From NCBI RefSeq assembly GCF_048128805.1, contig NC_136006.1, positions 2,593,235 through 2,657,234 on the forward strand: 64,000 nucleotides of DNA, written 5' to 3'. The notes below the pieces were generated by a model. That model made no database searches. It saw only the letters and a program-made list of their open reading frames with translations, and was not told where the DNA came from. Positions 3,345 through 55,399 of the stretch are shown here, in pieces. The first letter of the stretch is position 1. Every line of letters begins with the position of its first letter. Source of the DNA: Centroberyx gerrardi (lineage: Eukaryota; Chordata; Actinopteri; Beryciformes; Berycidae). A program made the translations under genes and the position numbers.

Positions 3345-3440
3345 TTCAACCACCAGAATGCTATAAAAGCTCTTCATCTGTTTTATTCTGGTCCAGTAGA
3401 GGGGGGAGGCTGGACCATCAGCTCTCATCTGGAGGAGGGT
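3345..3440 (+). promoter_or_regulatory. Putative core promoter and first exon of OR gene 4705-5649
   Basis: A TATAAAAG box begins at 3362. An initiator-like CCAGT has its A at 3395, 33 bases downstream, followed by a G run (3401-3406). The sequence CAGCTCTCATCTGGAGGAGG then leads into a possible splice donor GGTAAAT (GT at 3439-3440). A weak upstream box (TTCAACC, 3345-3351) lies 10 bases before the TATA. The same order and spacing recur upstream of the other receptors in this window. The ATG is 1.3 kb away, so a 5' intron is implied. Inferred from comparison only. Confidence 0.6.
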
Positions 3441-4704
3441 AAATAATCAATGAATAGAAGCATGTATATTTTCAAACTATTATTATTGTATTGCTCTAAC
3501 TTTTATTTATTATAAAAAAAATATAAATTTATAAAAATAAATATTTATTATATTTTATTTTCAATTACAACAACATTAACATCTCGAATGGCTCATCTGA
3601 GCTGATGAAATAACAATACATAAATAACACTTTTTGATGGCTCATGTGCATTGGCTCAGTTTTATGTGGCTGTACATTTAACGTGTTTCACCTTTTCCTG
3701 TGCAGATACTTCAGTTTCTTATGACCTTAAGCAAAATCAATATATTTTTTTAAAATAGCATTTTAAACCACACTTGTGCAAGCCAAGCTTTAAGTTATGA
3801 TTTTATGTCCTTGTATTCATACATTTTGTCAATTGTTTTTACTCCTGCTGTTACTTCTTTATGTTGCTTTTAAGTTTCTTATTTTACCTGATATTTACAA
3901 TGCTTTGGTTTCATTTTTCCTGTAGAATGTTTTTAAAAAAAATATCTATCACAATTGTTGGGGCTAACTGGAACAGCACACATCTAAATACTGTTTCTGT
4001 TGTAGCAGCTGGATGTTGATTATGTTTGATGAGTTGTTTTTTTTTCCAGCAATGGTAACGGAAACCATATCTGGAAATAATGTAAATGATGTAGAAGTGG
4101 TATAAATCTGTACGTCTGTAAATGCTATATGTAAGGAGGGTCGGTGATATGTTATGTTCATGATCAGAAACAGTCAGAAACAGTAGGAGAGTTACTGTAT
4201 GCCACTGAAATCAGCACAGGTTCATCAGTGATTGAATGGTCACTAAGATAATGGTCACTAAGATAATATTGCCTGGTAAGAAACTGGTACACAAAAAAAG
4301 TTGTTCTATATACTACAAGTGTTGCTGGAGTTTTTACCTTTTTAGACCTTTTTCCCTTCTCCATGCACCTTGGAAGTAGGTGAAGTTGTGCCAGAAACCC
4401 CTACTCTGATTCTACACAATAAAAGTTAACAATTCAACGAGGCTGGTTTCCCGAACGTATAGTTAAAACAACCTATATTAAAACTATTCCATTCTAACTA
4501 CACCATGTACATATTATTTGTTCTCAAGTGGATTTAACATGAATCCATAAGTGTCATAATTGATTTTTGCCTTGCTTTGCATAAATATTCTTTGAGTGAA
4601 AACTAGTTTGGCAATTAAAGTTTTGGAAGTCAAGTTTTTGTCTTGAATACTGACTTTGAGATCTTATATGTGCTATCTTCATCTTGTAAAAGTTTGTAGT
4701 ATCA
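3441..4704 (+). other. AT-rich stretch, presumed 5' intron/UTR of the OR at 4705
   Basis: No coding signal or recognisable repeat was found. The stretch is AT-rich, with poly-A/T runs around 3510-3560. It lies between the putative first exon and the start codon, so most of it is probably a 5' UTR intron. Confidence 0.4.
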
Positions 4705-5649
4705 ATGGCTACAACTAGGGAAAATTCAACATATGTGGTGTCATTTATTCTAATTCCTTATAGTAACATTGGACTGCTGAGATATCTGTATTTCACCATT
4801 ACAATTCTTTGGTACACTTCAATAATTGTGGCTAACACATTTCTTGTTGTGGTCATATGTATGGACAAAAAACTTCATGAACCCATGTACTTATTCCTCT
4901 GTAGTTTGTTTGTTAATGAAATGATTGGCAGCACAACTGTGTATCCGTGTCTACTGTCACAGATGCTTTCAGATACACATGAAGTGACTCTTACATACTG
5001 TTTCCTACAGATATTTATTCTTTATTCTTCTGCTTCTGTTGAGTTTTGCAGTTTAGCTGCCATGGCATATGATAGATATGTCTCTATCTGTTATCCTTTA
5101 CACTACCATGCCATTCTGAACACTAGAAGAGTGTGTAACATCATTGTGCTCATATGGGTATGTTCATTTATCAATTTTACGATCTCATTTTCTTTCACAA
5201 TTAATTTGAAATTTTGTGGGAAATATATTGACAAAGTGTTCTGTGACCACTATTTGTTGACCAAACTTGCATGTTCACTGACAACACTTAACAATATCTC
5301 TGACCTATTTTTTGCCTTTGTGGCTATTATTGGTCCACTGATCCTCATTTTTTTCTCTTACGTCAAGATTTTGACTGTTTGTTTGAAAACCTCCAAAGAG
5401 ACCAAGCAGAAAGCTATCAGCACCTGCACTCCTCAGATTGTCTCACTGGTAAACCTGTTTTTTGGCTGTATTTTTCACTTTGGTGATACTAGATTGGATA
5501 TGTCTGTAACTCATGTGCCAGATAAAGTGCGCATTCTCTTGTCAGTGTACCTTCTAATTTGTCAGCCGCTTCTAAGTCCTCTCATGTATGGGTTTAATCT
5601 GTCAAAAATTAGAAACGCTTGTAAAAGACTTATGTTTTATCGAAAATAA
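4705..5649 (+). CDS. Olfactory receptor, fish type, 314 aa
   Basis: Intact seven-transmembrane odorant receptor (class A GPCR), expected in olfactory neuron cilia and coupling to Golf/cAMP. The ORF is a single exon. An N-glycosylation sequon (NST, residue 7) lies in the short extracellular N-terminus. KKLHEPMYLFLC marks loop 1/TM2, C99 is the conserved TM3 disulphide cysteine, and MAYDRYVSICYPLHYH (from residue 120) is the family signature at the end of TM3. Cysteines 171, 180 and 190 sit in extracellular loop 2. FFSYVKI, KETKQKAISTC (231-241) and PLLSPLMYG (288-296) mark TM5, loop 3/TM6 and TM7. The length is normal. The ATG was chosen because it gives the short N-terminus shared with the other receptors. 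The odorant is unknown. Subfamily (probably teleost delta-like) is an inference. Confidence 0.96.
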   Translation: MATTRENSTYVVSFILIPYSNIGLLRYLYFTITILWYTSIIVANTFLVVVICMDKKLHEPMYLFLCSLFVNEMIGSTTVYPCLLSQMLSDTHEVTLTYCFLQIFILYSSASVEFCSLAAMAYDRYVSICYPLHYHAILNTRRVCNIIVLIWVCSFINFTISFSFTINLKFCGKYIDKVFCDHYLLTKLACSLTTLNNISDLFFAFVAIIGPLILIFFSYVKILTVCLKTSKETKQKAISTCTPQIVSLVNLFFGCIFHFGDTRLDMSVTHVPDKVRILLSVYLLICQPLLSPLMYGFNLSKIRNACKRLMFYRK

Positions 5650-6299
5650 ACTTTGCACAGAACCTCCATTTTTGGCTGCTATTGTTGTTTTGTAACTGGA
5701 CTAGAACTTAAAATGACAACACATACACACACACTATGTACTACACAAGCTAGGAAGGACAATTGATTATGTTTTACAATGAGAAAAGTGTGCATGAACA
5801 ACTCATAAAAAATGTTCTGCTGTGGAAATATTCTATAATGTAGTCTGGCAGAAAGAAAGTCACACCAGGGTAAAGGACTGCAAATGTGAGAGCGCTTTAT
5901 GGTTGATACCTTAGTAATAAAAGCATAGCAAGCAATACCAAGCAAATAAAAGCATGAATTACTATTTCTAGATCCTTAGTTGATAAAAACATATTTAACT
6001 TTGGAGGTATTTCACAATTGGAAAAAACATGACATAAGCCATAAAGTGAAGAAATAATACAAATAAGTCAATAATATAGATAAGTGAAAAATAATGCCAA
6101 GGCTTCCAGCATAAAGTTTTATATGTGATAGATCAGCCAGGCCCTTCTGAAGCAGACTCATCGTGTCTGGGGGACCAAACAATAGGCTATAACCTCAGGC
6201 TTGCTCTCATTTAGATGCAAAAAGTTATGAGACATCCAGTGCTTAAAGGATAAGGCTGGTGTTTTTTAATGCATTTGTTACCGTCAACAAATCCTATGA
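5650..6299. other. Intergenic, nothing recognised
   Basis: The region between the first receptor and the LINE fragment holds no recognisable gene or structured repeat. It is AT-rich and probably contains the 3' UTR of the upstream receptor. Confidence 0.4.
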
Positions 6300-7590
6300 A
6301 AATAACAAAATCAACAATGCGTTTGCTCTACTCCCGTTACTTTCTGACTTCCCACGTTCCCTTTTTAGCCTTCAACTCACATGACCTGTGGTGTACCACA
6401 AGGTTCTATTTTAGGTCCAATTTTATTTTCAATTTACATGCTGCCACTTGGCCAAATTATCCATAGACACAATGTCTCTTTTGATTGCTATGTGGATGAC
6501 ACACATATACCTTACCCTGAGACCTGATGACCCAAACAGCCTAGCTGCTGTAATAGATTGCCTCAATGATATCAACTGTTGGATGGCACAGAATTTTCTT
6601 CAGCTCAACAGTTCAAAATCCGACATCATATTGTTCGGTCCTGCTATTTCTATTTCTTCTATTGAGAGTGACTCCAACCTGAGCTTTGAAAAAAAAGTAG
6701 TCCAGTCCTGCTTCCTACAACTGAGAACCATTTCCAGAATTAAGCCAATGCTTTCACACAGCGATCTGGAGAAAGTAATCTTCTCACGACGAGACTACTG
6801 TAACTCCCTCCTTTCTGGCATAAACCAAAAGTCACTCTCTCGCCTCCAACTAGTTCAGAATGCAGCAGCTAGGCTTCTTACTAGTTTTAACAGACAACAT
6901 CACCATACCCCAATCCTGGATTCTCTCCACTGGCTCCCTGTCCAGTTTAGAATTGATTTTAAGATTTTACTGATCACTGTTAAAGCATGTTTGTGTCTGA
7001 CTCCAAGCTATATAACAGACATGCTGACCCCATATGAGCCAGTGTGCAGCCTTAGATCTTCGGGCTGGGCCCTTATGGCCATTCCCAAGTCTAGGCTTAT
7101 GACTAAAGACCCCTCGGCTTTGGAACGACCTGCCTGAGGAGATAAGGCTAGCAGAATCAGTGACTTCTTTTAAATCACTTTTAAAACCCATTTTTACAGA
7201 CTTGCTTTTATGTTATGTCGTCTTTTTATTGTCTTTTTATCATCTTTTTATTGTCTTTTATCTTTTTATCAAAATTGTTATCCTAATTGTATCTTACTTT
7301 TATTTTATCCTTACTCTTTATTTTGCTTACGGTTATCCTACTATTTACTTGAATGTTGCTCTTTTCCACCTCTGTCCTCCTATCTGAATATCCTCCTATC
7401 TGTTTATTATTGTTCCATTGCTTTTTAAATTCATTTTGAGTATTCTGCTTTTATTTTGACGGTCAAAGCACTTTGTAAACTCTTCCTGTCATCAAGTTCC
7501 TGTCATAATTATATCCGAGTCCAGGCCCTGAACTTTACTTCATGCACTTTACTTGTAATGTTCGAAGCACTTTGAATAAAGTGAACTGAA
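6300..7590 (+). mobile_element. LINE 3' fragment (L2/CR1-like reverse transcriptase end)
   Basis: This is the 3' third of a non-LTR retrotransposon, truncated at its 5' end and broken into several frames. [11 protein letters not shown]-like motif (about 6390-6420) and the catalytic CYVDDT (6486-6501, a YADD variant) are reverse transcriptase palm motifs. The longest open frame, from 6448 to 7137, ends with the family-typical tail including RDYCNSLLSGI and LQLVQNAAARLLT, then LHWLPVQFRIDFKILL. A WNDLPEE-like segment follows in another frame near 7120-7140. An AATAAA-bearing end near 7574-7590 probably closes the element. It is a fossil copy unrelated to the receptors it separates. Confidence 0.85.
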
Positions 7591-8452: not shown

Positions 8453-8557
8453 GTTTAGCTCAGCATCAGAATAAAAGCTGAGCAATGACTTCAAAGTTGC
8501 TCAGAAGGCGGGGGAGACTGCAGCAGCATAGAGGAACTCTCAGCTCTCATAGAGGGT
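8453..8557 (+). promoter_or_regulatory. Putative core promoter and first exon of OR gene 9002-9928
   Basis: The box GTTTAGC (8453-8459) lies 10 bases upstream of a TATA-like AATAAAAG (8470-8477). CTCAGA follows with its A at 8503, again 33 bases from the TATA start, then GCGGGGGAG. Downstream, CTCAGCTCTCATAGAGG runs into a possible donor GTATAAG (GT at 8556-8557), matching the equivalent stretch before the OR at 4705. The TATA box is one base off consensus. The ATG is about 0.5 kb away. Confidence 0.55.
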
Positions 8558-9001: not shown

Positions 9002-9928
9002 ATGGAGAACTCAACAGAGATCGTTTCATTTGTGCTGGCTGCATATGGGAACATTGGACAATTGAGATACCTGTATTTCATGATAATTATATTATGGTAT
9101 TTCTCAATCATTTTTATCAACTCAGCTCTTATTGTGGTTATATGCATGAACAGGAGGTTGCATGAGCCCATGTATATATTCCTCTGTAGTTTGTTGGTTA
9201 ATGAAATATATGGCAGCACAACAGTGTATCCTCTTCTAATGTCACAGATGTTTTCAGATACCCATGAAGTGAGTTTTGAAAACTGTTTTACACAGATAGT
9301 CTTTTTCTACACTTCTGTGTCAGTTGAATACTGTAATTTCGCAGCCATGGCTTATGACAGATATGTTTCTATATGTTACCCGTTACACTACAATGTCATA
9401 ATGAACACTGGGAGAGTCTGTGCAATCATTCTATTAGTGTGGATTTATTCAATTGTTAATTTTACGTTAACAGTGTATTTAATGGTCCACTGGAGATTTT
9501 GTGGGAATGTTATTGACAAAATTTATTGTGACATTCACTCTCTAGAGAAACTTGCCTGTTCAATCTCAGCAGCTAGGAGCATTTATGGATTAGTGTGCGC
9601 TACTGTTACTGTTTTTGTACCATTCTTATTCATTTCCTTCTCCTACATGAAAATTTTGATTATTTGTCTTAAAACCTCCAAAGAGACCAAGCAGAAAGCC
9701 ATCAGCACCTGTACACCTCAGATTGCCGCTCTAGTAAACTTTGCCATCGGCTGTTTATTTGATATTGCCCAAAGTAGATTTGATGTGACTCATATACCGG
9801 ATAAAATACGCATTCTCTTATCTGTGTATCTTCTTATTTGTCAGCCGATTTTCTCTCCTGTAATGTATGGTCTGAATCTATCCAAAATTAGAGATGCATG
9901 TAAAAGATTTCTGTTTTATAAAAAATAA
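9002..9928 (+). CDS. Olfactory receptor, fish type, 308 aa
   Basis: Intact single-exon odorant receptor, close in architecture to the gene at 4705 and in the same orientation; the two are probably an old tandem pair. The start MENSTEIVSFVL has the NST sequon at residue 3. RRLHEPMYIFLC marks loop 1/TM2, C95 is the TM3 disulphide cysteine and MAYDRYVSICYPLHYN begins at 116. FCGNVIDKIYCD and KLACS hold the loop 2 cysteines. FSYMKILIICLKTSKETK spans TM5 and loop 3, and PIFSPVMYGLNLSKIR marks TM7 and the helix 8 start. It is predicted to act in the sensory cilium membrane through Golf; the ligand is not predictable. Nothing looks broken. Confidence 0.96.
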   Translation: MENSTEIVSFVLAAYGNIGQLRYLYFMIIILWYFSIIFINSALIVVICMNRRLHEPMYIFLCSLLVNEIYGSTTVYPLLMSQMFSDTHEVSFENCFTQIVFFYTSVSVEYCNFAAMAYDRYVSICYPLHYNVIMNTGRVCAIILLVWIYSIVNFTLTVYLMVHWRFCGNVIDKIYCDIHSLEKLACSISAARSIYGLVCATVTVFVPFLFISFSYMKILIICLKTSKETKQKAISTCTPQIAALVNFAIGCLFDIAQSRFDVTHIPDKIRILLSVYLLICQPIFSPVMYGLNLSKIRDACKRFLFYKK

Positions 9929-11580: not shown

Positions 11581-11753
11581 ATAGTTGAAGAGATGTATTT
11601 GAGGGCACCAGAGCTGTGAAAAAGAAAAACAGATCCAATATTTCCTTTACATTTGTTTAGCTGCAATAACCACCTCCAGCTACCAAAATGCAAATACAGT
11701 GACAACTGCAAAGATGCCCCCACATCTAGACAAATGTCCAATGACAATCATCT

Positions 11754-16253: not shown

Positions 16254-17189
16254 TTATTTTTTATTCTGCAGAAAACCTTTGCCCACATCTCTAATTTTTG
16301 ATAAATTCAGGCCATACACAATGGGGCTTAAAAGAGGCTGACAAACCACAAGATACGCTGATAAGATCACACGCACAGTACCTGACAGATGATTTATGTC
16401 AAATACACTCTGACACATCTCAAAGAAACAGCCCATGGCAAAGTTTGTCACTGCAACAATGTGTGGCATGCAGGTGCTGACAGCTTTCTGCTTGGTCTCT
16501 TTGGAGGTTTTTAAACAAACAGTGACAACCTTGATGTAAGAGAATGAAAGGGGAATCAATGGGACAATGACACTCGCCACAGCAACAACTAAAATATAAA
16601 CATTATTAGCTGTTGAAACTGAACAGGATAGGGTATGTATCACATGGATGTCGCAATACACTTTGTTAATCAAATTCCTACAAAATCGTAAGCGGACAGT
16701 TAAGGAGTACGGGACTGTAAAAAGAAGAACTGAGTACACCCACACTAGCAGAAGCAAAACACATACTCTTCCTGAAGTCATTATAACATGGTACTGTAGA
16801 GGATAACAGATAGAGACATATCTGTCGTATGCCATGACTGCTAAATTAGAGTATTCAGCTATAACATAAGTATAAAGACAAAATAATTGCAGGAAGCAGT
16901 AAATAAATGGCACTTCATGAGTATCTGACAACATTTGTGACAATAGGCAAGTAAATATAGCTGTGCTGCCGTATAATTCATTAACAAACAAACTACAGAG
17001 AAACACGTACATCGGTTCATGCAGAGTTCTCTCTACATATATCACCACAATAAGGCCTGTGTTTGCCACAACTATTGTGATGTATGACAAAAATATGATG
17101 GTGAAATACAAGTATTTTAGGTGTCCGAGATTACCATAAGCAGCAAGAATAAATGAAACAATCTGTGTTGAGTTAGTTGAGTTATCCAT
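16254..17189 (-). CDS. Olfactory receptor, fish type, 311 aa
   Basis: Intact odorant receptor. The start was placed at MDNSTNSTQIVSF, which carries two sequons (N3, N6) and matches the N-termini of its neighbours. An in-frame ATG seven codons upstream exists, but TTTCTTTGCAG just before this start looks like a splice acceptor, which favours the shorter form. RTLHEPMYVFLC marks loop 1/TM2 and MAYDRYVSICYPLQYH starts at 119. The usual YCNLA before it is YSNLA, so one cysteine is lost. FCRNLINKVYCDIH lies in loop 2, TSKETKQKAVSTC in loop 3, and PLLSPIVYGLNLSKIR in TM7. It heads a run of three minus-strand receptors. The membrane GPCR role is as for the family; the ligand is unknown. Confidence 0.95.
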   Translation of the reverse strand: MDNSTNSTQIVSFILAAYGNLGHLKYLYFTIIFLSYITIVVANTGLIVVIYVERTLHEPMYVFLCSLFVNELYGSTAIFTCLLSQMLSDTHEVPFIYCFLQLFCLYTYVIAEYSNLAVMAYDRYVSICYPLQYHVIMTSGRVCVLLLLVWVYSVLLFTVPYSLTVRLRFCRNLINKVYCDIHVIHTLSCSVSTANNVYILVVAVASVIVPLIPLSFSYIKVVTVCLKTSKETKQKAVSTCMPHIVAVTNFAMGCFFEMCQSVFDINHLSGTVRVILSAYLVVCQPLLSPIVYGLNLSKIRDVGKGFLQNKK

Positions 17190-17622: not shown

Positions 17623-17681
17623 CCCCCCCCCCCCCCCCCCCCCTGCACTGAGCCAACATTTATGCTAGTCTGTTGGTAATC
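17623..17681 (-). promoter_or_regulatory. Putative, diverged core promoter of OR gene 16254-17189
   Basis: Read on the minus strand: GATTACC (17681-17675), ten bases, then CATAAATG in place of TATAAAAG (from 17664). GGCTCAGT has its A at 17649, followed by a run of more than 20 G (17643 downward). The box-to-TATA distance is conserved, but the TATA-to-initiator distance is 15 instead of 33 and the TATA is degenerate. This is the weakest member of the promoter set. Confidence 0.45.
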
Positions 17682-17780: not shown

Positions 17781-17816
<36 letters not shown>

Positions 17817-21093: not shown

Positions 21094-22008
21094 TCACTTT
21101 TTGAAGCACAACTTTTTGCATACATTTTTAATTTTTGTTATTTTGAGTCCATATATAATTGGACTTAAAAAGGGCTGACAGATTAAAAGATACACTGACA
21201 AAATAACACGCACTGGACTTGGAACCTGAGTCATCTCAAACTTAGTTTGGAGTACCTCAAAGAAACAGGCAATGACAAAGTTTGTCAGACAAACAATGTG
21301 TGGAGTACAAGTCCTGAGGGCTTTCTGTCTGGACTCTTTGGAGGTTCTTAAACAAACAGCTAATATCTTGATGTAAGAGAATAAAATGGGGATCAAAGGG
21401 ACGGTAAAAGTCACAAAGCCACCAACTAGAGTGAATGTACTGTTAACTGCTGAAATTGAACAGGCCATTTTGTTAGGATCACAAAAGACTTTGTCAATTA
21501 GGTTCCCACAAAATTTAAAATGAACAACAATAAACATAGTAACAGTAGATTTCATGAAAGAATATACCCACACTAGTAGAAGTATTGCATACACTTTTCC
21601 TGTGGTCATAATGATACTGTAGTGTAGCGGATAGCAGATAGAGACATATCTGTCATATGCCATGGCTGCTAAACTACAGTATTCAACAGATCCATACATA
21701 TATAGACAAAATAACTGAAGTAAACAAAAGATGAAAGACACCTCATGAGTCTCTGAAAACATATGTGTTATAAGGCAAGGAAAAATAACTGTGCTGCCAT
21801 ATAATTCATTAACAAACAAACCACAGAGAAACAGATACATGGGTTCATGCAGAGTTCTCTCACCACAAATGACCCCAATAAGCAAGATGTTGGCACAAAT
21901 AATTGACAAGTATGATGAGATTAATATGGTGAAAAACAGGTACCTCATGTGTCCAATGTTACCATAGGCAGTGAGCACAAATGACACAATCTGTGTGGAG
22001 TTCTCCAT
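21094..22008 (-). CDS. Olfactory receptor, fish type, 304 aa, short loop 2
   Basis: Intact odorant receptor starting MENSTQIVSFVLTAYGN (sequon N3). RTLHEPMYLFLCGLFVNE marks loop 1/TM2, EYCSLAAMAYDRYVSICYPL contains the TM3 signature (MAYDRY at 116) and FSYIKILAVCLRTSKESR spans TM5/loop 3. PFLSPIIYGLKITKIK marks TM7. In extracellular loop 2 the stretch between FCD and ACS is PNKM, whereas sister genes have seven residues there, so three residues are missing from the loop that caps the odorant pocket. The cysteines are kept. The C-terminus is very short (VCKKLCFKK). It is in the same orientation as its neighbours at 16254 and 25163. Confidence 0.95.
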   Translation of the reverse strand: MENSTQIVSFVLTAYGNIGHMRYLFFTILISSYLSIICANILLIGVICGERTLHEPMYLFLCGLFVNELYGSTVIFPCLITHMFSETHEVSFIFCLLQLFCLYMYGSVEYCSLAAMAYDRYVSICYPLHYSIIMTTGKVYAILLLVWVYSFMKSTVTMFIVVHFKFCGNLIDKVFCDPNKMACSISAVNSTFTLVGGFVTFTVPLIPILFSYIKILAVCLRTSKESRQKALRTCTPHIVCLTNFVIACFFEVLQTKFEMTQVPSPVRVILSVYLLICQPFLSPIIYGLKITKIKNVCKKLCFKK

Positions 22009-22361: not shown

Positions 22362-22464
22362 TTGAGAGTTGAGAGTCAAGAAGTCCTTCGACCAGACGTA
22401 TCCCCCCCCCCACTGAGCCGGACTGAAGCAGCTGCTGAACTTTTATACTGGTCTGACGGTAAAC
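22362..22464 (-). promoter_or_regulatory. Putative core promoter and first exon of OR gene 21094-22008
   Basis: On the minus strand: GTTTACC (22464-22458), ten bases, TATAAAAG (from 22447), TTCAGCAGCTGCTTCAG, then GGCTCAGT with its A at 22414, then a run of ten G. The TATA-to-initiator distance is 33. About 40 bases further, CTCTCAACTCTCAA resembles the CTCAGCTCTCAT of the promoters at 3.4 and 8.5 kb, followed by AAGGTCAAG as a possible donor. The start codon is about 0.4 kb away. Confidence 0.65.
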
Positions 22465-25162: not shown

Positions 25163-26167
25163 TCAAACAGAAAAGATTATCTTAATGAAACAAAAAAACA
25201 AACAAACATTGCAGGTTCTAGTTGTTTGGAAATTAAATTGAGACATTATATACACTAAAAACTTATGGCACACATTTCTTATTTTTGAGATATGAAGACC
25301 ATACATAATTGGACTTAAAAGTGGTTGGCAAATCATAAGATACATAGATAAAATGATACGAAGTGCTGCTGGTATCCATGTTATGTCAAATCTACTTTGG
25401 AGAATGTCAAAGAAACAGGCAAATGTAAAGTTTACAAGAGAAGCAATGTGTGGAGTGCAGGTGCTGATGGCTTTTTGTTTGGTTTCTTTGGAGGTTTTTA
25501 AACAAACTGACAAAATCTTGATGTAAGAGAACGAAATGGGGATTAAAGGAACACCAACAGTCAAAAAACCAACAACATAAATAGATATGCTGTTAAATGT
25601 CGACACAGAACAGGCTAGTTTATTTAACAGCCAGATGTCACAATACACCTTGTCAATAATATTCTCACAAAATTTCAAACTGACAGTGACAGGCACGGTT
25701 ATTGTAAACTTAATAAATGAATATGTCCACACGAGCAGAATGATCATATTCACTCTTCTTGTGGTCATAATGACACTGTAGTGTAAAGGATAACATATAG
25801 AAACATATCTGTCATAAGCCATGGCTGCTAAATTGCAGTATTCAACAGAGGCATATGTGTAGAGAGTAAATATTTGCAGGAAGCAATGGCTGGCTGGCAC
25901 ATCATGTTTATCTGAAAGCATTTGTGTCATTATAAAGGGTAACATAGCAGTACTGCCATATAATTCATTAGCAAATAAACTACACAGGAAAAGGTACATG
26001 GGCTCATGCAGTGGTTTCTCTACACAGATGACCAAAATGAGAACTGAGTTGGCCACAACTATTGCGATGTAAAAGATGACTACTATGGAAAAATACAGAT
26101 GCCTTAATTGATCAATATTACCATAAGCAGCCAGCACAACTAGTACAATCTGTGTTGTGTTCTCCAT
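25163..26167 (-). CDS. Olfactory receptor, fish type, 334 aa, extended C-terminus
   Basis: Intact odorant receptor beginning MENTTQIVLVVLAAYGN (NTT sequon at 3). KPLHEPMYLFLCSLFANE marks loop 1/TM2, YCNLAAMAYDRYVSICYPL contains the signature (MAYDRY at 116) and KVYCDIWLLNKLACS lies in loop 2. FSYIKILSVCLKTSKETK spans TM5/loop 3 and PLLSPIMYGLHISKIRNVC marks TM7. After the usual stop position the frame runs about 25 residues further (TRTCNVCLFFCFIKIIFSV), giving an unusual Cys/Phe-rich tail. This probably reflects loss of the ancestral stop codon. A hAT insertion splits its promoter region (see 26711-27612). Ligand unknown. Confidence 0.94.
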   Translation of the reverse strand: MENTTQIVLVVLAAYGNIDQLRHLYFSIVVIFYIAIVVANSVLILVICVEKPLHEPMYLFLCSLFANELYGSTAMLPFIMTQMLSDKHDVPASHCFLQIFTLYTYASVEYCNLAAMAYDRYVSICYPLHYSVIMTTRRVNMIILLVWTYSFIKFTITVPVTVSLKFCENIIDKVYCDIWLLNKLACSVSTFNSISIYVVGFLTVGVPLIPISFSYIKILSVCLKTSKETKQKAISTCTPHIASLVNFTFACFFDILQSRFDITWIPAALRIILSMYLMICQPLLSPIMYGLHISKIRNVCHKFLVYIMSQFNFQTTRTCNVCLFFCFIKIIFSV

Positions 26168-26653: not shown

Positions 26654-26710
26654 ACCTCCCCCTTCTACTAAGCTACACTGAGGCAGTTGTTGAACTTTTA
26701 TACTGTGGTG
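26654..26710 (-). promoter_or_regulatory. Putative core promoter of OR gene 25163-26167, split by a transposon
   Basis: On the minus strand: TATAAAAG from 26702, TTCAACAACTGCCTCAG, then GCTTAGT with its A at 26669, then AAGGGGGAGG. TATA-to-initiator spacing is 33. The upstream box expected about 10 bases before the TATA is not adjacent: it is found as GATTAGC at 27627-27621, beyond a 902-bp hAT insertion that starts at 26711. Removing the insertion and one target copy leaves 8 bases between box and TATA, close to the 10 in the other genes. Confidence 0.65.
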
Positions 26711-27612
26711 CAGGCTTGGAATTTCGTCATTTTAGGGGCAAGGCCATTTGGCCTTCGGTGTCACACATTTTTTAGGGCACAAAGGCCACATGCCAGGGCA
26801 CAAAGGCCATTGAGTGAAATAAGAGGATTTAGAGCCTACAAATATCCTGTTAAGCCCGACGGACCCGGTAACATTACCGGGTCCACCCCCATGGTGTAGT
26901 TATGAAAAATCTCGATGGAAGATGGTCTATTTATAGAAGATATGAATGCTATACTGTTTTGAAAACATGGGGTCTTCAGCTTTCAGAATCCGTATTGTAT
27001 GTTGTATGTTGTCCAAACTATGTCTTATTACGAAGTATTTTAACAATAAAGTCGTACAAATATAAACTTCGTAAATATAAGAGCAAGTTGTGATCAAAAG
27101 ATCCGGGATAATTTTCTCGTCAGTCTACAATAACATGCTTGCTTGGTATCGATGGAAACTAGAAATTCCGAGCTTTCCAATGACCCTAAACGCACCACGA
27201 TTGGAACGATACAACGTCCACCATTTCCGGGGAAACGTAGCAGTCAAACTTCACATTTTAAGTCACACTGACAAAAATCTATGTTCTTGCCAAAATATTT
27301 CACCAAGGCTTATGTTATTTTCGCCAAAAACGGCAGAGTTTAGTTACTCACGTTTCTACCGTAAGTTCTACCGTGAGTTGTGTCTGACTCATAGCAATCT
27401 TCCGTGGATTTTCACCAGCCATTTCACTCCAGACAGACTGGAGCTCTATGGTGGGAGCTCTGGCTCTTCGTCGCCATCTGTATCGAAGTACTGACACCAA
27501 TGAGCCTTATACCATTCTATTCCTCTGACTCTGACAGTAACAGGGGATCACGGCCAGAGCGAGGGGCAACGACGGCCATGGCTGTCGTGGCCGCCGTGAA
27601 ATTCCTACCCTG
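26711..27612. mobile_element. Non-autonomous hAT element inserted in an OR promoter
   Basis: The left end CAGGCTTGGAATTTC and the right end GAAATTCCTACCCTG are 15-base inverted repeats with three mismatches. The flanking 8-mers CTGTGGTG (26703-26710 and 27613-27620) are a perfect target duplication. The family is the same as the element at 14319-15263. Internal reading frames (such as 27090-27494) have no transposase resemblance. It sits immediately upstream of the TATA box of the OR at 25163-26167. Confidence 0.93.
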
Positions 27613-27627
27613 CTGTGGTGGCTAATC

Positions 27628-36876: not shown

Positions 36877-36946
36877 GTTTACCTATGGACCACTATAAAA
36901 GTTCAGCAGCTGGTTCTGTCTGTCTCAGTATGGGTGGGGGGTGGGG
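36877..36946 (+). promoter_or_regulatory. Putative core promoter of OR gene 37447-38382
   Basis: GTTTACC (36877-36883), ten bases, TATAAAAG from 36894, TTCAGCAGCTGGTTCTG, CTCAGT with its A at 36927 (spacing 33), then a G-rich run GGGTGGGGGGTGGGG. The upstream box contains TGTTTAC, a forkhead-factor core. The start codon is about 0.5 kb downstream. Confidence 0.68.
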
Positions 36947-37446
36947 GAGTTACAACAGCCTGGAGGCCTTACTCACTCTGCCATCTCTGAGATCTTTCTC
37001 ATCACGTTTGGTAATTATCTTAGGAAAAGGGCATAATATGACTGATGTGTGTTAGCGCTGAAGGCTGGCTGTTTATTTTAATGATCTGATAATCTTATGA
37101 CTGACAAGTACAAGACATCTCCAGCATGACTCTCAGTGATTAGATCCCACACATGGTTTTTATCTCTGTTACTTTCTTTAATTGTTGATGTTTTGTGTGA
37201 ACTCTTAAGACACTTCCATATAGAATAACCACCATTTAAAAAATCTTGATTGATAGTAAAAGAGCAAAGGAAAGTACCAGTTATATTTCCTGTACAAAAT
37301 GATCGATGGCAAAATAGCCACTACTAAAATGATATGAATGAATTCCTCCCATGTTAGATTACATCTCTATTTTCTTGGTGCATTACTTTTCAAAAGTTGC
37401 AGTTGCAGGCTCAGTCTGCCTAAGCCTGTATGTTATTACTGCTGAC
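36947..37446 (+). other. Presumed 5' UTR/intron of the OR at 37447
   Basis: Non-coding in appearance. The last 96 bases are open in frame with the receptor (ATG at 37351), but no other receptor has such an extension. Confidence 0.4.
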
Positions 37447-38382
37447 ATGGGAAACTCAACACAGATTGTGTCATTTGTGTTGGCTATGTATGGTAACATA
37501 GGAAACTTAAAGTACCTGTTTTTCACCCTGGCAATGCTATTATACACATTAGTAATTTTTGCCAACATAGTTCTCATTGTCATTATATATGTGGACAGAA
37601 ATCTGCATGAGCCCATGTATCTATTTCTCTGTAGTTTGTTTGCTAATGAAATATCTGGTAGCACAACTTTGTTGCCCTGCTTAATGACACAATTATTGTC
37701 AGACACACATGAAATTTCTGTCTTTTACTGTTTTATACAAATATTTTCTATTCATGCATATGTAGGTGTTGAATATGCAAATTTAACAAGCATGGCATAT
37801 GACAGATATGTGTGTATCTGTAAGCCTTTACATTACAATGTGATCATAACCAAACGAAGAGTACAACAAACCATTGTAGCTATCTGGATACTTTGTTTTA
37901 CGGAAGTTGGAGTTTTGTTGGCTTTCACTATTCGTTTAAAGCTTTGTGGAAATATTATCAACAACGTTGCTTGTGGGAACCATCTTGTAGTGAAACTTTC
38001 TTGTTCATTAGACACAACAGTGTCAGAGATTCATGATCTGCTTTTTGGTCTTATTTTTGCCGTTGTTATCCCTACAAGTTTTATTTCATACACATATATA
38101 AAGATTCTGGCTGTATGTTTAAAATCTTCCAAAGAGACCAGACGGAAGGCTTTCAGTACCTGCACTCCACATCTTGTTTCTCTCATTAACTTTGCTTTTG
38201 GCTGTTTTTATGGGTTAATAACTCAGAGACATGGCACAATGTTTCTTCCATATCCACTGCGTGTTATGTCATCTACATACCTCTTGATTTGTCAACCTCT
38301 TCTAAGTCCAATCATGTATGGTCTTAAACTGTCAAAAATTAGACATGCTTGCAAAAACTTTCTGACATCAAAGATGATGTAA
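37447..38382 (+). CDS. Olfactory receptor, array copy A-left, 311 aa
   Basis: Intact odorant receptor. The start was placed at MGNSTQIVSFVLAMYGN (sequon N3) by alignment with the single-copy receptors; an in-frame ATG 32 codons upstream would add a hydrophobic leader not found in the others. RNLHEPMYLFLCSLFANE marks loop 1/TM2, and MAYDRYVCICKPLHYN starts at 116. EYANLTS replaces the usual EYCNLAA, losing a cysteine. KLCGNIINNVACGNH lies in loop 2, TYIKILAVCLKSSKETRRK spans TM5/loop 3 and PLLSPIMYGLKLSKIRHAC marks TM7. It belongs to a four-member set with 45062, 55896 and 63508. Private residues relative to the other full-length copies include I in FANIV, S in NEISG, I in FTIRL and T in SSTYLL. 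Ligand unknown. Confidence 0.96.
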   Translation: MGNSTQIVSFVLAMYGNIGNLKYLFFTLAMLLYTLVIFANIVLIVIIYVDRNLHEPMYLFLCSLFANEISGSTTLLPCLMTQLLSDTHEISVFYCFIQIFSIHAYVGVEYANLTSMAYDRYVCICKPLHYNVIITKRRVQQTIVAIWILCFTEVGVLLAFTIRLKLCGNIINNVACGNHLVVKLSCSLDTTVSEIHDLLFGLIFAVVIPTSFISYTYIKILAVCLKSSKETRRKAFSTCTPHLVSLINFAFGCFYGLITQRHGTMFLPYPLRVMSSTYLLICQPLLSPIMYGLKLSKIRHACKNFLTSKMM

Positions 38383-40732: not shown

Positions 40733-42271
40733 GGCCCAATCCCATTTCTTATTTTTACCCCTACCCCTCGTTTTCGAGTGCCCCTCGCTTTTCAACTTGC
40801 CCCTCGGAACAGAGTTACAAGGGGTAGTGGTTGAAATCTTCCCCTGTGAAATTGGACAACCCTTCAACACCCTGATACGTCATCAGTAGTTGTCGATGGC
40901 GTTTACGTAAACAGACGCGACGAGTTTGTTGCCGGAATCTCACAATGCCATCTTCAGCTGTGGTGATTTCTCTTGCGTGGGCTATAGGCATCCTTTTGCG
41001 GTTGTCAACAGCAAATCGGAGAAATGTAAGAAAAAGAAGACGTCTTCAACGCCTGGGAATGCTGGTGGATCAGTTTGAGGTATGTAGGATAGACTGCAAA
41101 CAAGTTTTGTTGTAGTTAGCCTAGCTACACAACATGCTAGCTAGCTAGTATAGTGACTTGGTAACTAACGTTAATGTTGGATCAACCTGTTTGTGATACA
41201 CACGTAATGTCAAATAAACGACCGTTTACTTTATTGATTTATGTGTTGTGTGATGATCTGTGTGCAGGTCTGATAGGATAGAATACTGTACACATGCATT
41301 GTATGTAGCTATTAACGTGTTTGTGGCATATGCGTTTGGTTCCCTCAGTTTCACCTAGTAAAAGTGCTTCCAATTCAGACTATGATGTGAACTTATTTCC
41401 TTTTCCAGACTGGTCATCCTACGTCATACTGCAAGCTGAATCACAACATGCCCATCCTGCGTTTGCGGTTTAACGTAGAGGCCGAGCTGAAGCAGGACTT
41501 CCGCCTCAGCAGAAGAGCCATGCATGGTCTGCAGAGGCTCCTACAGAGGGAACAGGACCATGGCTGGGGTAATCAGCTGGAAGTCCTGATATACGTTTAC
41601 TGGCTGGCTCATGGACTGTCCTATCGGGTTGTATCCAGTGTCTTCAATGTGCCAAAATCCACAATCCACCGCGTCATCCACAAAGTTGCACAACACATAT
41701 GGATCAACCTGAAGCGAGCCATCTGTTTCCCACAAGCAGGAGAGCTTCATGCAGTTGGGCAAGGATTTGTCCAGTTATCAGGAAGCCCTGCCTTCAACAA
41801 CGTTGTGGGTGCAATAGATGGTTGCCATATCAGGATCAAACCCCCTCTACAGCACTGAATAGACTATTTGAATTACAAAGGGTTCTTTTCAATAAATGCA
41901 GGCAATTTGTGATTCTAATGGAAGATTCCTTGATATCTTTGTTGGCTACCTGGGGTCGGTTCATGACACGCATCATGAAGAACAGTAGCTTTTACAGGGC
42001 AAGACGGTACCCTCCCACAGGTTACATCCTTCTGGGTGATGGTGGCTATCCCTGTTTGGACTCACCAATCTGCCTAATCACACCTTACAAGGAGCCCATT
42101 AATGGACACATACAGGGGCGCTTCAATTATTATCATTCCAGAGGGCGCAGCATAATCGAAAGGGCTTTTGGAATGATGAAGACCAGATGGAGGTCTACCC
42201 TTTTCAGAGCCTTGGAGGTTAAACCCACATTTGCACCTCAGGTTTTTGCATCCTGTGCCTTTTTACACAAT
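40733..42271 (+). mobile_element. PIF/Harbinger transposon, centre of palindrome A
   Basis: The left end GGCCCAATCCCATTTCTT followed by ACCCCTACCCC repeats is typical of fish Harbinger elements. It interrupts the LINE at 40732. Inside is a HARBI1-like transposase (40945-42268). A right terminal inverted repeat was not found: at 42272 another left-type end (GGCCCAATCCCAATACCCCC) begins instead, in the same orientation, apparently a second Harbinger-type element inserted at, or fused to, the transposase C-terminus. Confidence 0.8.
40945..42268 (+). pseudogene. HARBI1-like Harbinger transposase, frameshifted (unit A)
   Basis: A two-exon DDE_4 transposase. Exon 1 (40945-41079, 45 codons) begins MPSSAVVISLAWAIGILLRL and ends at the donor GAG|GTATGT. 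Exon 2 starts after TTTTCCAG at 41409, in phase. It reads MPILRLRFNVEAELKQDFRL, the helix-turn-helix-like LSYRVVSSVFNVPKSTIHRV and VVGAIDGCHIRIKPP (first catalytic D), then loses frame at about 41850. Several frame changes lie between 41850 and 41990. GYILLGDGGYPCL and the glutamate motif SIIERAFGMMKTRW follow in the frame ending at CAFLHN, where the second Harbinger-like end begins. Such enzymes cut at TWA targets with a Myb-like partner; none is encoded here. Not functional as it stands. Confidence 0.85.
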
Positions 42272-42709
42272 GGCCCAATCCCAATACCCCCTTGCCCCTA
42301 CCACTTAGCCCTACCCCTCCGTTTTGCGCATTCACACGTAGGGGTAGGGTGTCCCGATTCTTGTTGGGATAGAGGGGTAGGGCAAAGTAGTAGGGCTATA
42401 TGGCCCTCCAAACAGAGGTTTTTCAGAGGCACACTCAAAAGCGAGTGTTATGAGAAATCTCCCAGAATTCCTTGCGAATCATCGGCAAGATGGTGGCTAA
42501 CGCTGCACAAGCAAAAAAGAAAACCACAAATGTATTTTCTTTGTTAATAAAGATTTAAAAATTATGATAACTATCGTATTATCTTAGTTTCATGTCGTTT
42601 CAATGTATTATAGACCTTTTCTTTATAACAAGCATAACAAAAAATCGCTAGTATGCTGATGTCTCTAGCTATCTAGCTAACGTTACAACATTTTCATTTT
42701 CAAAATAAT
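42272..42709. mobile_element. Second Harbinger-type end and AT-rich filler
   Basis: GGCCCAATCCCAATACCCCC starts at 42272, with ACCCCT/AGGGGTAGGG motifs on both strands to about 42400, then unassigned sequence with TCTAGCTATCTAGCTAACG near 42664. Probably a non-autonomous relative of the transposon to its left; its right end was not found. Confidence 0.5.
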
Positions 42710-45061: not shown

Positions 45062-45997
45062 TTACATCATCTTTGATGTCAGAAAGTTTTTGCAAGCATG
45101 TCTAATTTTTGACAGTTTAAGACCATACATGATTGGACTTAGAAGAGGTTGACAAATCAAGAGGTATATAGATGACATAACACGCAGTGGATATGGAAGA
45201 AACATTGTGCCATGTCTCTGAGTTATTAACCCATAAAAACAGCCAAAAGCAAAGTTAATGAGAGAAACAAGATGTGGAGTGCAGGTACTGAAAGCCTTCC
45301 GTCTGGTCTCTTTGGAAGATTTTAAACATACAGCCAGAATCTTTATATATGTGTATGAAATAAAACTTGTAGGGATAACAACGGCAAAAATAAGACCAAA
45401 AAGCAGATCATGAATCTCTGACACTGTTGTGTCTAATGAACAAGAAAGTTTCATTACAAGATGGTTCCCACAAGCAACGTTGTTGATAATATTTCCACAA
45501 AGCTTTAAACGAACAGTGAAAGCCATCAAAATTCCAACTTCCGTAAAACAAAATATCCAGATAGCTACAATGGTTTGTTGTACTCTTCGTTTGGTTATGA
45601 TCACATTGTAATGTAAAGGCTTACAGATACACACATATCTGTCATATGCCATGCTTGTTAAATTTGCATATTCAATACCTATATATACATGAATAGAAAA
45701 TATTTGTATAAAACAGTAAAAGACAGAAATTTCATGTGTGTCTGACAATAATTGTGTCATTAAGCAGGGCAACAAAGATGTACTACCATGTATTTCATTA
45801 GCAAACAAACTACAGAGAAATAGATACATGGGCTCATGCAGATTTCTGTCCACATATATAATGACAATGAGAACTACGTTGGCAAAAATTACTAATGTGT
45901 ATAATAGCATTGCCAGGGTGAAAAACAGGTACTTTAAGTTTCCTATGTTACCATACATAGCCAACACAAATGACACAATCTGTGTTGAGTTTCCCAT
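45062..45997 (-). CDS. Olfactory receptor, array copy A-right, 311 aa
   Basis: Intact odorant receptor, the inverted partner of 37447-38382, starting MGNSTQIVSFVLAMYGN. It differs from the left copy at roughly a dozen residues, for example FANVV, NEIHGSTSLL, SIHVYIGIEY, WIFCFTEVGILMAFTV and HLVMKLSC. MAYDRYVCICKPLHYN, the loop 2 cysteines, SSKETRRKAFSTC and PLLSPIMYGLKLSKIR are kept. Several changes fall in TM3 and TM4, which line the odorant pocket in this family, so the two arm copies may differ in tuning. It faces its partner tail to tail. The 155 visible residues of the B-right copy at 63508 are identical to it. Confidence 0.96.
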   Translation of the reverse strand: MGNSTQIVSFVLAMYGNIGNLKYLFFTLAMLLYTLVIFANVVLIVIIYVDRNLHEPMYLFLCSLFANEIHGSTSLLPCLMTQLLSDTHEISVFYCFIQIFSIHVYIGIEYANLTSMAYDRYVCICKPLHYNVIITKRRVQQTIVAIWIFCFTEVGILMAFTVRLKLCGNIINNVACGNHLVMKLSCSLDTTVSEIHDLLFGLIFAVVIPTSFISYTYIKILAVCLKSSKETRRKAFSTCTPHLVSLINFAFGCFYGLITQRHGTMFLPYPLRVMSSIYLLICQPLLSPIMYGLKLSKIRHACKNFLTSKMM

Positions 45998-46493
45998 GTC
46001 AGCAGTAATAACATACAGGCTTAGGCAGACTGAGCCTGCAACTGCAACTTTTGAAAAGTAATGCACCAAGAAAATAGAGATGTAATCTAACATGGGAGGA
46101 ATTCATTCATATCATTTTAGTAGTGATTATTTTGCCATCGATCATTTTGTACAGGAAATATAACTGGTACTTTCCTTTGCTCTTTTACTATCAATCAAGA
46201 TTTTTTAAATGGTGGTTATTCTATATGGAAGTGTCTTAAGAGTTCACACAAAACATCAACAATTAAAGAAAGTAACAGAGATAAAAACCATGTGTGGGAT
46301 CTAATCACTGAGAGTCATGCTGGAGATGTCTTGTACTTGTCAGTCATAAGATTATCAGATCATTTAAATAAACAGCCAGCCTTCAGCGCTAACACACATC
46401 AGTCATATTATGCCCTTTCCCTAAGATAATTACCAAATGTGATGAGAAAGATCTCAGAGATGGCAGAGTGAGTAAGGCCTCCAGACTGTTGTA
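45998..46493 (-). other. Presumed 5' UTR/intron of the OR at 45062-45997
   Basis: Mirror of the stretch upstream of the left-arm receptor. No independent gene. Confidence 0.4.
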
Positions 46494-46567
46494 ACCCCCC
46501 CACCCCCCACCCGTACTGAGACAGACAGAACCAGCTGCTGAACTTTTATAGTGGTCCATAGGTAAAC
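46494..46567 (-). promoter_or_regulatory. Putative core promoter of OR gene 45062-45997
   Basis: On the minus strand: GTTTACC (46567-46561), ten bases, TATAAAAG from 46550, TTCAGCAGCTGGTTCTG, CTCAGT with its A at 46517 (spacing 33), then a G-rich run to 46494. Same layout as the left-arm promoter. Confidence 0.68.
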
Positions 46568-50645: not shown

Positions 50646-50649
50646 GTCA

Positions 50650-52199: not shown

Positions 52200-52211
52200 C
52201 TCTGTCTGTGA

Positions 52212-52250
<39 letters not shown>

Positions 52251-52990
52251 AGTGTGTGTGTGTGTCCTTCGCATATCTCAAGAACCGTTCTTCCGATCTA
52301 CTTCACACTTGGCGGGTGTATTGCTGGGGACCCAAGGATGTGCAGTGTCGGATTTGGTGCAATTTGGACACGCAACACGTTCAATATTAATAAACTTTGA
52401 CTAAACAAGCAAACAGCGAGCCGCTCAGCTCTGTGTCTGAGTGCAGCGGGGGCTGTTTGATATAAACACTGTCACATCACAGCAGGAGCTTCAGGGCTCT
52501 GACTGGCTGAGCGGGACAAAGGCACGCGCCCCCCTCAGTTAAACTGCCCGAGAGAGAAGAACGAGCATACACAGGAGAAAAAAACAGAGGCGGAGCCAGT
52601 AAAACTAGCAAATAGGAGCGCAGACACGTTTGACTGGCAGCAGAATCAACCAATGGAAGGCCGTAAACTGCTTCTACAGTTCAAGCGCAGTTTAGTTTCA
52701 CTGGTGAAGTCTGGGGACTGGGGACCCAAGGACGTGCAGTGTCGGATTTGGTGCAATTTGGACACGCGACACGTTCAATATTACTAAACTTTGAATAAAC
52801 AATGCAGTGCTCTGTGCAGCAGCGGGGCTCAAGCGGTACGGGCAACATGCGGTTCTCGAGAAAGCTGCACTACGGGCTCAAGCGGTAAGGGCACACGCGG
52901 TTCTCGAGAAAGCTGCATTACGGGCACGAGCGGTTCTCCAGAAAGCTGCAAGCAGCAATCGGCCCGTTCCGGACAGGCACGTTTTGAACG
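52200..52990. repeat. Interspersed fish repeat with internal duplications
   Basis: It starts with a GT microsatellite (52215-52264), followed by GTCCTTCGCATATCTCAAGA, the head of a repeat I believe to be common in teleosts. The segment GGGGACCCAAGGA.GTGCAGT through ACACGTTCAATATTA..AAACTTTGA occurs twice (about 52325-52400 and 52718-52797). A minisatellite follows at 52825-52953. No coding capacity was recognised. Confidence 0.7.
52825..52953. repeat. Minisatellite, about 49-bp unit, three copies
   Basis: Units begin GGGCTCAAGCGG at 52825 and 52874, and GGGCACGAGCGG at 52922. Each contains CGGTTCTCGAGAAAGCTGCA or a close variant. The third copy is shortened. Confidence 0.85.
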
Positions 52991-53375
52991 GGCACTGCAC
53001 TAGTCTGAATAAATGCACTGATCTATTTAACAGAGCCAAATGAAGACAGGAGGATCAGTCTCAGATTAGAGGAGACAAGTCAGCAGAGTTGAGGTAATTA
53101 GATCGTCAAGAAAGTTAATAATAAAGCTAAAATGAGTGTATTCCTGGTTTTCTAAAGCTGTTGTTGATGCCATGAAAGTGATGCCCATTTCCTAACTGGT
53201 ACCCTTGTACACAATAGTATTCAGTTCATAAGCAAGGCTCAACATGGTGCATTAATTTAGACCAGTGATAGGACTACTATGTCAGAGTCAGGTTATCTTA
53301 AATTAATCAAAACCCATATGGCTTGAGTATTCAGATCATCTTTCTCATAAATATGAGAAAATAATGTTATAATGT
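52991..53375. other. Spacer end, nothing recognised
   Basis: Unassigned AT-rich sequence up to the start of unit B. Confidence 0.3.
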
Positions 53376-53587
53376 AGGATGTCAGACAGAAATCATATAA
53401 ATATCAACAAAAACCATTGGCACATTTATATGGGCTGTATATTATAAGGAAACTGCAACTGAATGCACACAAACTGTTTTATTTCTGCTTTTAAAAGGAA
53501 TAAGGCCCTCTGCCTTCCAGACACCTCTGTTTAGCTAGTAGTGCTCAGCAGATGCAAGCTGTGACTGCGGTGACTTCACTCACAAAC

Positions 53588-54676
53588 AATCAACATCCTT
53601 TTATTGCTGACGCTTTTGCATCTTATTGCATTAAGGAACAATGGACTAAACACTCATTTCCATCAACCCAGGCCATCTGGTCATCGTAGCAGGGTAGCTG
53701 TTATTCACAAAGATCACATAAAATATTCCCCTATCTCTTATGGCATTTTTTCCACCTTTGAATCACTTAGTTTCCTGGTTAATGGTAAGGCTCCCTTGCT
53801 ATGTGTCTTAGTCTACAGACCCCCCAAACTGAACTATGATTTAATCCAGGAATTCTCTGACCTTCTGTCTCTCATCGTGCCTAAATATGATAGACTTTTA
53901 ATACTTGGTGATTTTAACATCCATGTGCGTTGCCCATCATATGCACTTGTTACCGATTTTATGCAGTCTTTCAACCTTGTTCAATCTGTAAGTGAGTCTA
54001 CTCTTGCAAAGGGCCATACTCTTGACCTTGTACTCTCCTTTGGTCTGCCCTTAAGTAATGTTCAGATAAAGGATATGCATGTGTCTGACCACAAGGCAAT
54101 TGTATTTGATGCACCGCTACTTTCTTCTACCTCCTCTCCGCTCAGCTGTTGATTTTTAAAACATCTGCAAACAAATTTCCTGAGGCTTTCTTGGCGACTC
54201 ACAGTGATATATCTTTCATGACATCCCAGAGTCACACTGATGAGCTAGTCACTCATTTTAATCAAATCTGTTTGGCCATACTCGACTCCGTTGCTCCTCT
54301 CAAAAACAAGAGGTCAAAACCACAAGCTTTTCCATGGATCAATGATAAACCTCGGGACCAACCCTGAGTGTAAATGGAAGGCTAACAAATTACAGATCTT
54401 CCACGATATTTTGAAAAATCTAATGCTCACATATTAGAAAATGGTTAAGGATGCAAGAGCTGCATTTTTCTCAGACCTTATATCTAAAAATTGTCACAAC
54501 TCTAAGGTTCTGTTCAAAGCTATATATTCTGTCATTAGCCCTTCCCCCAGCCACAGCATTGAAGCCTCCCCAGAGAAGTGTGAGGAATTTTTAGTTTGTT
54601 TTACTCAAAAGGTTGAAAATATAAGATGTCTTCTGATAAGAGCAAATAGAGGACCTCATTTGAGAGACAATATCCT
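53588..54676 (+). mobile_element. LINE endonuclease-domain fragment (unit B)
   Basis: Copy of 35126-36215 with only scattered substitutions (for example LLILGDFNIHV for ILILGDFNIHV). It has the same truncation and the same stops, so it was duplicated as part of the unit and did not insert independently. Confidence 0.85.
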
Positions 54677-54968
54677 TTTTTTTTTTTTTTTTTTCACCTT
54701 TATTTATTCAGGGGAGTTTCACTGAGAGCAATGCTCTCTTTTTCAGGAACGCCCTGATCACATTCACACACATTCACACCTGGAAGCTGACCAGTACAAC
54801 CACAGTCTGATCTGCTGGCCACTGAGCAGCTCCACTGGAAATTGGAGAAATTGGTTGAAAACAGTTGAGTTATCTGACATGAGAGAAAAGTCCCTGTCAG
54901 CAGGGGAAGTCTGACATCTTATATTTTCAACCTTTTGAGTAAAACAAACTAAAAATTCCTCACACTTC
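54677..54968 (-). mobile_element. Retroelement 3' end with A-tail plus inverted LINE scrap (unit B)
   Basis: Copy of 36217-36519. The T run is slightly shorter and about ten bases (AAGACAAGAG region) are missing near 54882. Confidence 0.7.
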
Positions 54969-54984
54969 TAACCCTAACCCTAAC
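54969..54984. repeat. Telomere-like CCCTAA tract (unit B)
   Basis: TAACCCTAACCCTAAC, identical to the tract at 36520-36535 and likewise touching the outer end of the left arm. Confidence 0.8.
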
Positions 54985-55325
54985 ACCAAAACCTAGATAC
55001 CCCCATCACCTGTCTGAATTTAGATTCTGTCCCCTCACTTTAATCTAAAGTTAGGCACCAGTGATCAGGGGGCCCCAGGTTGTTGTTGACAACAGGCCTA
55101 ATCCTTTAACCTGTTTGCTCTCCATTCACAAACTTCAAATTCTGTTGCAAACTTTAATTTTCTTTCATAGAATGCACATGTAGTCCTTTTTTAAAAATGT
55201 TTGACGAATTAGTTTTAGCAGTGTGAGATAGTCTGGCCAAGAATTGTCTGAATAAATTAGTTTTTTTCCTTTGATAACTATAATCCGGTGATAGATGGCG
55301 TCATCACATTCTGCTTGTTGTGTGT

Positions 55326-55399
55326 GTTTACCTATGGACCACTATAAAAGTTCAGCAGCTGGTTCTGTCTGTCTCAGTACGGGTGGGGGGTGGGGGGGT
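55326..55399 (+). promoter_or_regulatory. Putative core promoter of OR gene 55896-56831
   Basis: GTTTACC (55326-55332), ten bases, TATAAAAG from 55343, CTCAGT with its A at 55376 (spacing 33), then GGGTGGGGGGTGGGGGGG. Nearly identical to 36877-36946. Confidence 0.68.

Follow-up and report, generated by a model that had tools for sequence, protein, structure and literature searches.

A shared TATA and initiator block upstream of one odorant receptor subfamily in Centroberyx gerrardi is probably its inherited core promoter

INTRODUCTION

In mouse, the great majority of TATA promoters are spaced 27 to 34 bases from TATA to start, with 30 to 31 the commonest values, and starts at 33 are accompanied by preceding pyrimidines and few earlier usable steps (PMC1779604; this and the other papers are cited here for the parts of their text that were accessible). 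For odorant receptor genes, a TATA box was called in 39% of the mouse promoters studied in PMC3247239, which mentions another group that failed to detect TATA enrichment, and TATA positions in receptor promoters do not closely track starts (PMC5318403). According to the accessible part of PMC1849887, mouse odorant receptors show no conserved noncoding sequence between family members, and therefore a block that is shared within a receptor subfamily is worth note. Here we analyze such a block upstream of the odorant receptor genes in a 64,000-nucleotide stretch of Centroberyx gerrardi DNA (the window, C10:2593235-2657234, in a genome of 779 Mb and 278 contigs).

A preliminary description of the window had set its receptor promoters against TATA-poor mammalian ones. 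This contrast agrees with PMC5318403, in which receptor promoters are usually TATA-less, but not with PMC3247239, in which TATA is enriched near mouse starts. None of the listed titles of openly licensed papers concerned a core promoter in fish odorant receptors, and the accessible parts of PMC1849887 and PMC8207432 contain none.

RESULTS

Upstream of 13 of the 14 genes of one odorant receptor subfamily, we recognized a block of about 70 bp that comprises an upstream box, TATAAAAG, a spacer, CTCAGT, and a G-rich run; in one of the genes the block is damaged. We consider it very likely, judging from sequence comparison, that this block is the inherited TATA/initiator RNA polymerase II (Pol II) core promoter of the subfamily, that it is ancestral to the tandem array, and that transcription starts at the initiator A. 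The subfamily was defined as the 14 C10 genes with at least 49% protein identity to the query among the best-scored candidates, and these fell into 10 clusters by likeness of their upstream sequences. All eight complete receptor frames of the window match the Pfam Olfactory receptor family; a ninth receptor is truncated at the right end, with its TATA beyond the window at C10:2658230. One cluster consists of five copies that carry the same promoter, four of which were compared and share 95 to 98% protein identity. Its window members 36894, 46550, and 55343 (genes are named here by their first TATA base) were counted as one. The cores and boxes in the window are as follows.

3362 to 3395, plus strand: core, TATAAAAG at 3362-3369 to the predicted start A at 3395, spacing 33; receptor open reading frame (ORF) 4705-5649
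Directly upstream of the TATA at 3362: weak box, GTTCAACC
8470 to 8503, plus strand: core, AATAAAAG to CTCAGA, spacing 33; weak box GTTTAGC; receptor ORF 9002-9928
17649 to 17664, minus strand: degraded core, CATAAATG with CTCAGT 15 away, then a long G run; ORF 16254-17189 open; box GATTACC
22414 to 22447, minus strand: core, TATAAAAG to CTCAGT, spacing 33; receptor ORF 21094-22008
22458 to 22464, minus strand: box GTTTACC, 10 bases upstream of the TATA; forkhead-like core TGTTTAC, which is GTAAACA reversed
26669 to 26702, minus strand: core, TATAAAAG to CTTAGT, spacing 33; receptor ORF 25163-26167
36894 to 36927, plus strand: core, TATAAAAG to CTCAGT, spacing 33; GTTTACC box 36877-36883; ORF 37351-38382
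46517 to 46550, minus strand: core, recent duplicate of the 36894 promoter, spacing 33; box 46561-46567; ORF 45062-46093
55343 to 55376, plus strand: core, recent duplicate of the 36894 promoter, spacing 33; box 55326-55332; ORF 55800-56831

The eight TATA-like coordinates and distances given in the preliminary description (33 at seven genes and 15 at 17664) proved correct throughout. Among the eight window genes with 5' DNA, six carry TATAAAAG exactly, the others being 8470 with AATAAAAG and 17664 with CATAAATG. A pyrimidine-purine step lies 27 to 34 bases 3' of the TATA in seven of the eight, always at 33; the exception is 17664, with its CTCAGT at 15.

Conservation of the block was measured between eight diverged families (28 pairs) by the best local alignment in the 2 kb upstream. 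The block, in register, is the best upstream alignment in 17 of the 28 pairs, and 16 exceed the highest of 28 shuffled scores; once it is masked, 24 of 28 scores fall at or below the shuffled maximum. Ungapped identity over seven families decreases from 0.90 (TATA) through 0.78 (initiator), 0.61 (spacer), and 0.52 (box) to 0.42 for the 24 bases past the initiator and 0.30 for the 12 bases preceding the box; this profile includes one hand-set gap in one TATA run, and its 26702 row is transposon upstream of the TATA, which lowers the box and pre-box values. Fourfold coding sites have a mean identity of 0.57 (range, 0.42 to 0.70; 21 pairs). Thus, the sequence of the spacer evolves at roughly the silent-site rate, and its length is kept. 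Within the spacer, CAGCAGCTG occurs in three of the eight families. In nine sequences, G makes up 8 to 17 of the 20 bases that follow the initiator A; 10 or more G are found in 1.25% of background 20-mers.

The core is specific to these receptors. In a joined 255 kb of C10, both strands, TATAAAAG occurs 16 times, 9 of them at subfamily promoters. The full layout NATAAAAG-YYAG-GGGG, with any spacing from 14 to 51, gave 10 matches there, all at receptor promoters (nine at 33 and one at 29), as a pattern that was designed after the sites had been seen and that misses C10:2577608, C10:2586339, and 17664, where the G run or the TATA differs. The layout thus exceeds chance. Genome-wide, the exact 19-base core TATAAAAGTTCARCARCTG has 8 matches, all 8 upstream of subfamily receptors, and its reversed control has none. 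The looser pattern TATAAAAG N14-34 CAGT N0-6 GGGGG returned 24 rows representing 17 distinct sites, 8 at the cluster and 9 on nine other contigs; the reversed control returned 16 rows, and the scattered noncluster sites are in line with it. When a 23-mer of the block was searched with as many as 3 mismatches allowed, its 7 perfect matches all lay at the cluster, and 26702 was found at 3 mismatches. Elsewhere the 23-mer finds 39 places at 2 to 3 mismatches, the nearest at 2, versus 7 control rows; four of the 39 are one identical word, TGTAAAACTTCAGCAGCTGCCTC, which has no TATA. There is a slight excess of distant likenesses and no close copy elsewhere in the genome. As a side observation, a weak promoter-like match (score, 38) lies at C10:2540406 on the minus strand, with no receptor remains downstream; it may be due to chance.

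The spacing was said to be fixed at 33 bp in one layout common to all the receptors, and this is not supported. It is 33 in 10 of the 14 genes and 6 of the 10 upstream clusters, namely, C10:2577608, 2597954 (3362), 2602236 (8470), 2615242 (22447), 2619401 (26702), and the five-copy cluster of 36894. At C10:2586339 it is 32, the TATA run being short of one A; at C10:2726636 it is 29, with four spacer bases fewer; and at 2610408 (17664) it is 15, with CATAAATG. One alignment of 17664 with its paralogs leaves 18 spacer bases missing, and a second alignment places 17664 differently. The long G run at this site is possibly an assembly effect. C10:2581620 (locus L016, C10:2580697-2585427), the neighbor of C10:2586339, has no recognizable block within 3.8 kb upstream, and its reading frame is intact. 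The two neighbors share 93% protein identity, and their upstream likeness extends over only the last 230 bases or so; the promoter block of C10:2581620 was therefore lost or left behind. The TATA-initiator spacing is well kept, not fixed. With 29, 32, and (in the sister subfamily described below) 30 or 31 beside 33, what is constant is a TATA and an initiator at 29 to 33, and not the value 33. In the six 33-spaced families, bases 30 to 32 are all pyrimidines and base 33 is a purine; the nearest pyrimidine-purine step 5' of these falls at 28 or 29. Because the spacer evolves at the pace of silent DNA with its length unchanged, the TATA-initiator distance may be under selection. Spacer deletions do occur, as 17664 and C10:2726636 show, and the indel-to-substitution ratio in recent duplicates was too noisy to test the spacing formally.

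The upstream box is the weakest part of the block. It had been described upstream of every copy, whereas the exact GTTTACC is found only at 22447 and the three recent copies; 17664 has GATTACC, 3362 and 8470 have weak forms, and the box assigned to 26702 is a transposon end. The features at 26702 are as follows.

26711 to 27612, minus strand: hAT-like transposon of 902 bp with imperfect inverted ends, 8 bases upstream of the TATA
27621 to 27627, minus strand: probable displaced box GATTAGC of the 26702 promoter, on the far side of the transposon

An 8-bp target duplication, CACCACAG, flanks the element at 26703-26710 and 27613-27620, and on the far side of the element the upstream DNA continues, alignable with the 8470 and C10:2586339 promoters; the supposed box is thus the transposon end. 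The insertion left the 26702 core whole and shifted the upstream part, likely including the original box, by about 0.9 kb. The hAT label is our assumption, taken solely from the 8-bp duplication and the short inverted ends, with no transposase. The element has no long ORF (the longest stop-to-stop frame is 137 amino acids), and it matches 44 genome rows, 12 of them full length, including itself.

For the motif counts, the names forkhead, EBF, Lhx2, E-box, and TCF/LEF, the reading of TCCCNNGGGA as an O/E motif, and that of TAATTA and TAATGA as homeodomain words are assignments that we presume. The counts cover nine related promoters from -300 to +100 of the TATA, a sample with little power in which one interval is part transposon. 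The forkhead core noted earlier in the box is present as GTAAACA at -18 from the TATA, in only three of the eight diverged families (four of nine sequences), and is absent elsewhere in those 400-base intervals. Strong O/E enrichment near the TATA was not seen in the nine related sequences, and looser forms gave a small excess: TCCCNNGGGA at up to 1 mismatch occurs in one of nine promoters (about 0.9 expected) and at 2 mismatches 26 times versus 18.9, and TCCCYNGRGA, the core of the matrix in PMC3247239, occurs 3 times versus 1.6 at 1 mismatch and 24 times versus 19.8 at 2. The two homeodomain words tried, TAATTA and TAATGA, were not enriched, with 3 matches in the nine promoters and about 5 expected. 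CTTTGATA at 1 mismatch occurs 9 times versus 4.1, and five of the nine are the TATA read backwards. As candidate shared partners, O/E, Lhx2-like, and TCF/LEF-like (CTTTGAT) sites showed no clear enrichment.

A sister subfamily of four genes lies on C6 (34.05-34.08 Mb; 51 to 53% identity). In three of these genes an aligned block contains TATAAAG and, 3' of it, CAGT at a spacing of 30 (two genes) or 31 (one gene), an arrangement of TATA and initiator like that of the C10 subfamily; in the remaining gene, TATAAAA-CAGT at 31 lies outside any aligned block. Unlike in the C10 subfamily, the spacing is 30 or 31, and the aligned block is without the GTTTACC box or the G-rich run. Among upstream motifs, CCTTTGATA is common to the 36894 family and the C6 sisters and has no match in most families, and CCTTTGATAA occurs near TATAAAG-CAGT in C6:34057689-34059218 (L030) and C6:34075321-34076850 (L032) and also in the 36894 family.

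The surroundings of the window genes include a segmental duplication of about 18.4 kb at 36400-64000, which carries inverted receptor pairs and contains a DDE_Tnp_4 transposase frame at 41699-42547 and again at 60147-60995. A long frame matching DUF4371 at 1071-2846 is likely of transposon origin.

DISCUSSION

Our results support a TATA and initiator core that is shared by the subfamily, as the preliminary description had proposed: it is subfamily specific in this genome, it is conserved amid mostly unalignable flanks, and it recurs in the sister subfamily. It looks like an ordinary kind of promoter rather than a new type. The ancestor of the array would already have had the block, which would then have been copied along with the genes. 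TBP would bind TATAAAAG, and the polymerase would start at the A of CTCAGT. The pyrimidines at 30 to 32 and the purine at 33 thus predict a start at the initiator A. A spacing of 33 is near the upper limit of what is usual in mammals and is probably tolerated because, with no pyrimidine-purine step at 30 to 32, the initiator A is the first usable start that follows; the step at 28 or 29 may yield minor starts. The upstream box and the G-rich run would be subfamily accessories.

Several results weigh against this interpretation. Four of the 14 genes deviate (32; 29; 15 with a damaged TATA; none), though their frames are open. In 11 of the 28 pairs something other than the in-register block gives the best upstream alignment; in two of these, both with 26702, the alignment picks up the half displaced by the transposon. 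A few other segments also align between families, mainly close to the start codon, and the four pairs that stayed above the shuffled maximum after masking include such sequence and one longer 3362/8470 segment. No splice donor of a first exon (leader intron) is consistent among the copies. Beyond the subfamily, TATAAA-CAGT at 28 to 34 is only modestly enriched in 41 other receptor upstream clusters, with 7 sense and 2 antisense matches (shuffles, 1.1; highest, 4), and three of the seven are the C6 sisters; with the loosest initiator the excess is gone (8 versus 7.3). A related test gave 8 sense and 1 antisense matches (shuffles, 2.3; highest, 6), and strict [TC]ATAAAAG in that test gave 1 versus 1. 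A TATA-CAGT rule for all receptors of this genome therefore has modest support.

If the block were a functionless remnant of recent tandem duplication, it would have had too little time to diverge, and the five-copy cluster, with the same promoter in every copy and 95 to 98% protein identity among the four compared, speaks for this. Between families, the TATA is 90% identical although silent sites average 57% and most of the upstream sequence cannot be aligned, and at 26702 both core elements survive next to an inserted transposon. The comparison of silent-site with TATA identity disfavors a duplication artifact between families, and as an account of the block we regard it as very unlikely. 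More improbable still, to the point of being nearly negligible, is that the element belongs to a dispersed repeat whose position near receptors is due to chance. The region is rich in transposons, and the 39 distant places against 7 control rows suggest a faint likeness to some repeat. However, the exact core is found genome-wide only upstream of these receptors, other places appear only at 2 to 3 mismatches of the 23-mer and none within 1, and the true repeat alongside (26711-27612) has about 40 dispersed matches. A repeat-family origin, which had been named as a possible refutation of the layout, is thus not supported.

A different possibility accepts the promoter and holds that 33 is strictly required, whether through a subfamily-specific initiation complex or through the box. 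The spacer length is unchanged in six diverged families while the sequence changes at about the silent rate, as this would predict, but open-frame genes of the subfamily have 29, 32, and 15, the sister has 30 and 31, and ordinary mouse TATA promoters range from 27 to 34 (PMC1779604). We find such a requirement very improbable and prefer an inherited core promoter whose distance is kept without being fixed. A further reading, which we consider unlikely, is a start-proximal code of forkhead-like box, TATA, and initiator, with no O/E or homeodomain sites, in which receptor choice would act via a TATA core promoter and not via the mammalian O/E-homeodomain promoter. If such a code existed, 26702, the 29-spaced C10:2726636, and the promoterless C10:2581620 would be its natural mutants.

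The array offers a predicted start base for most of its genes, and its natural variants of spacing, box, and TATA in one cluster make the role of each element testable without making mutants. TATA/initiator promoters are standard; the listings of openly licensed papers that were searched, from a partial library, gave no subfamily-wide aligned TATA and initiator for fish odorant receptors.

Among known systems, the mouse receptor promoters of PMC3247239 are alike in that TATA is enriched just upstream of the starts in a subset. They differ in being marked by O/E and homeodomain sites, whereas in this subfamily an initiator is in alignment with the TATA, and the few sequences compared show no clear enrichment of such sites from -300 to +100 of the TATA. 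Teleost V1r1 (PMC1849887) is likewise a case of short noncoding 5' sequence kept in fish chemoreceptor genes, although there the conserved sequence lies in the 5' untranslated region of V1r1 orthologues. The vertebrate TATA-plus-initiator Pol II promoters of PMC1779604 share with this block the TATA, the pyrimidine-purine step, the spacing of 27 to 34, and the pyrimidines before starts at -33; their favored spacing is 30 to 31, whereas here it is 33, with a predicted start.

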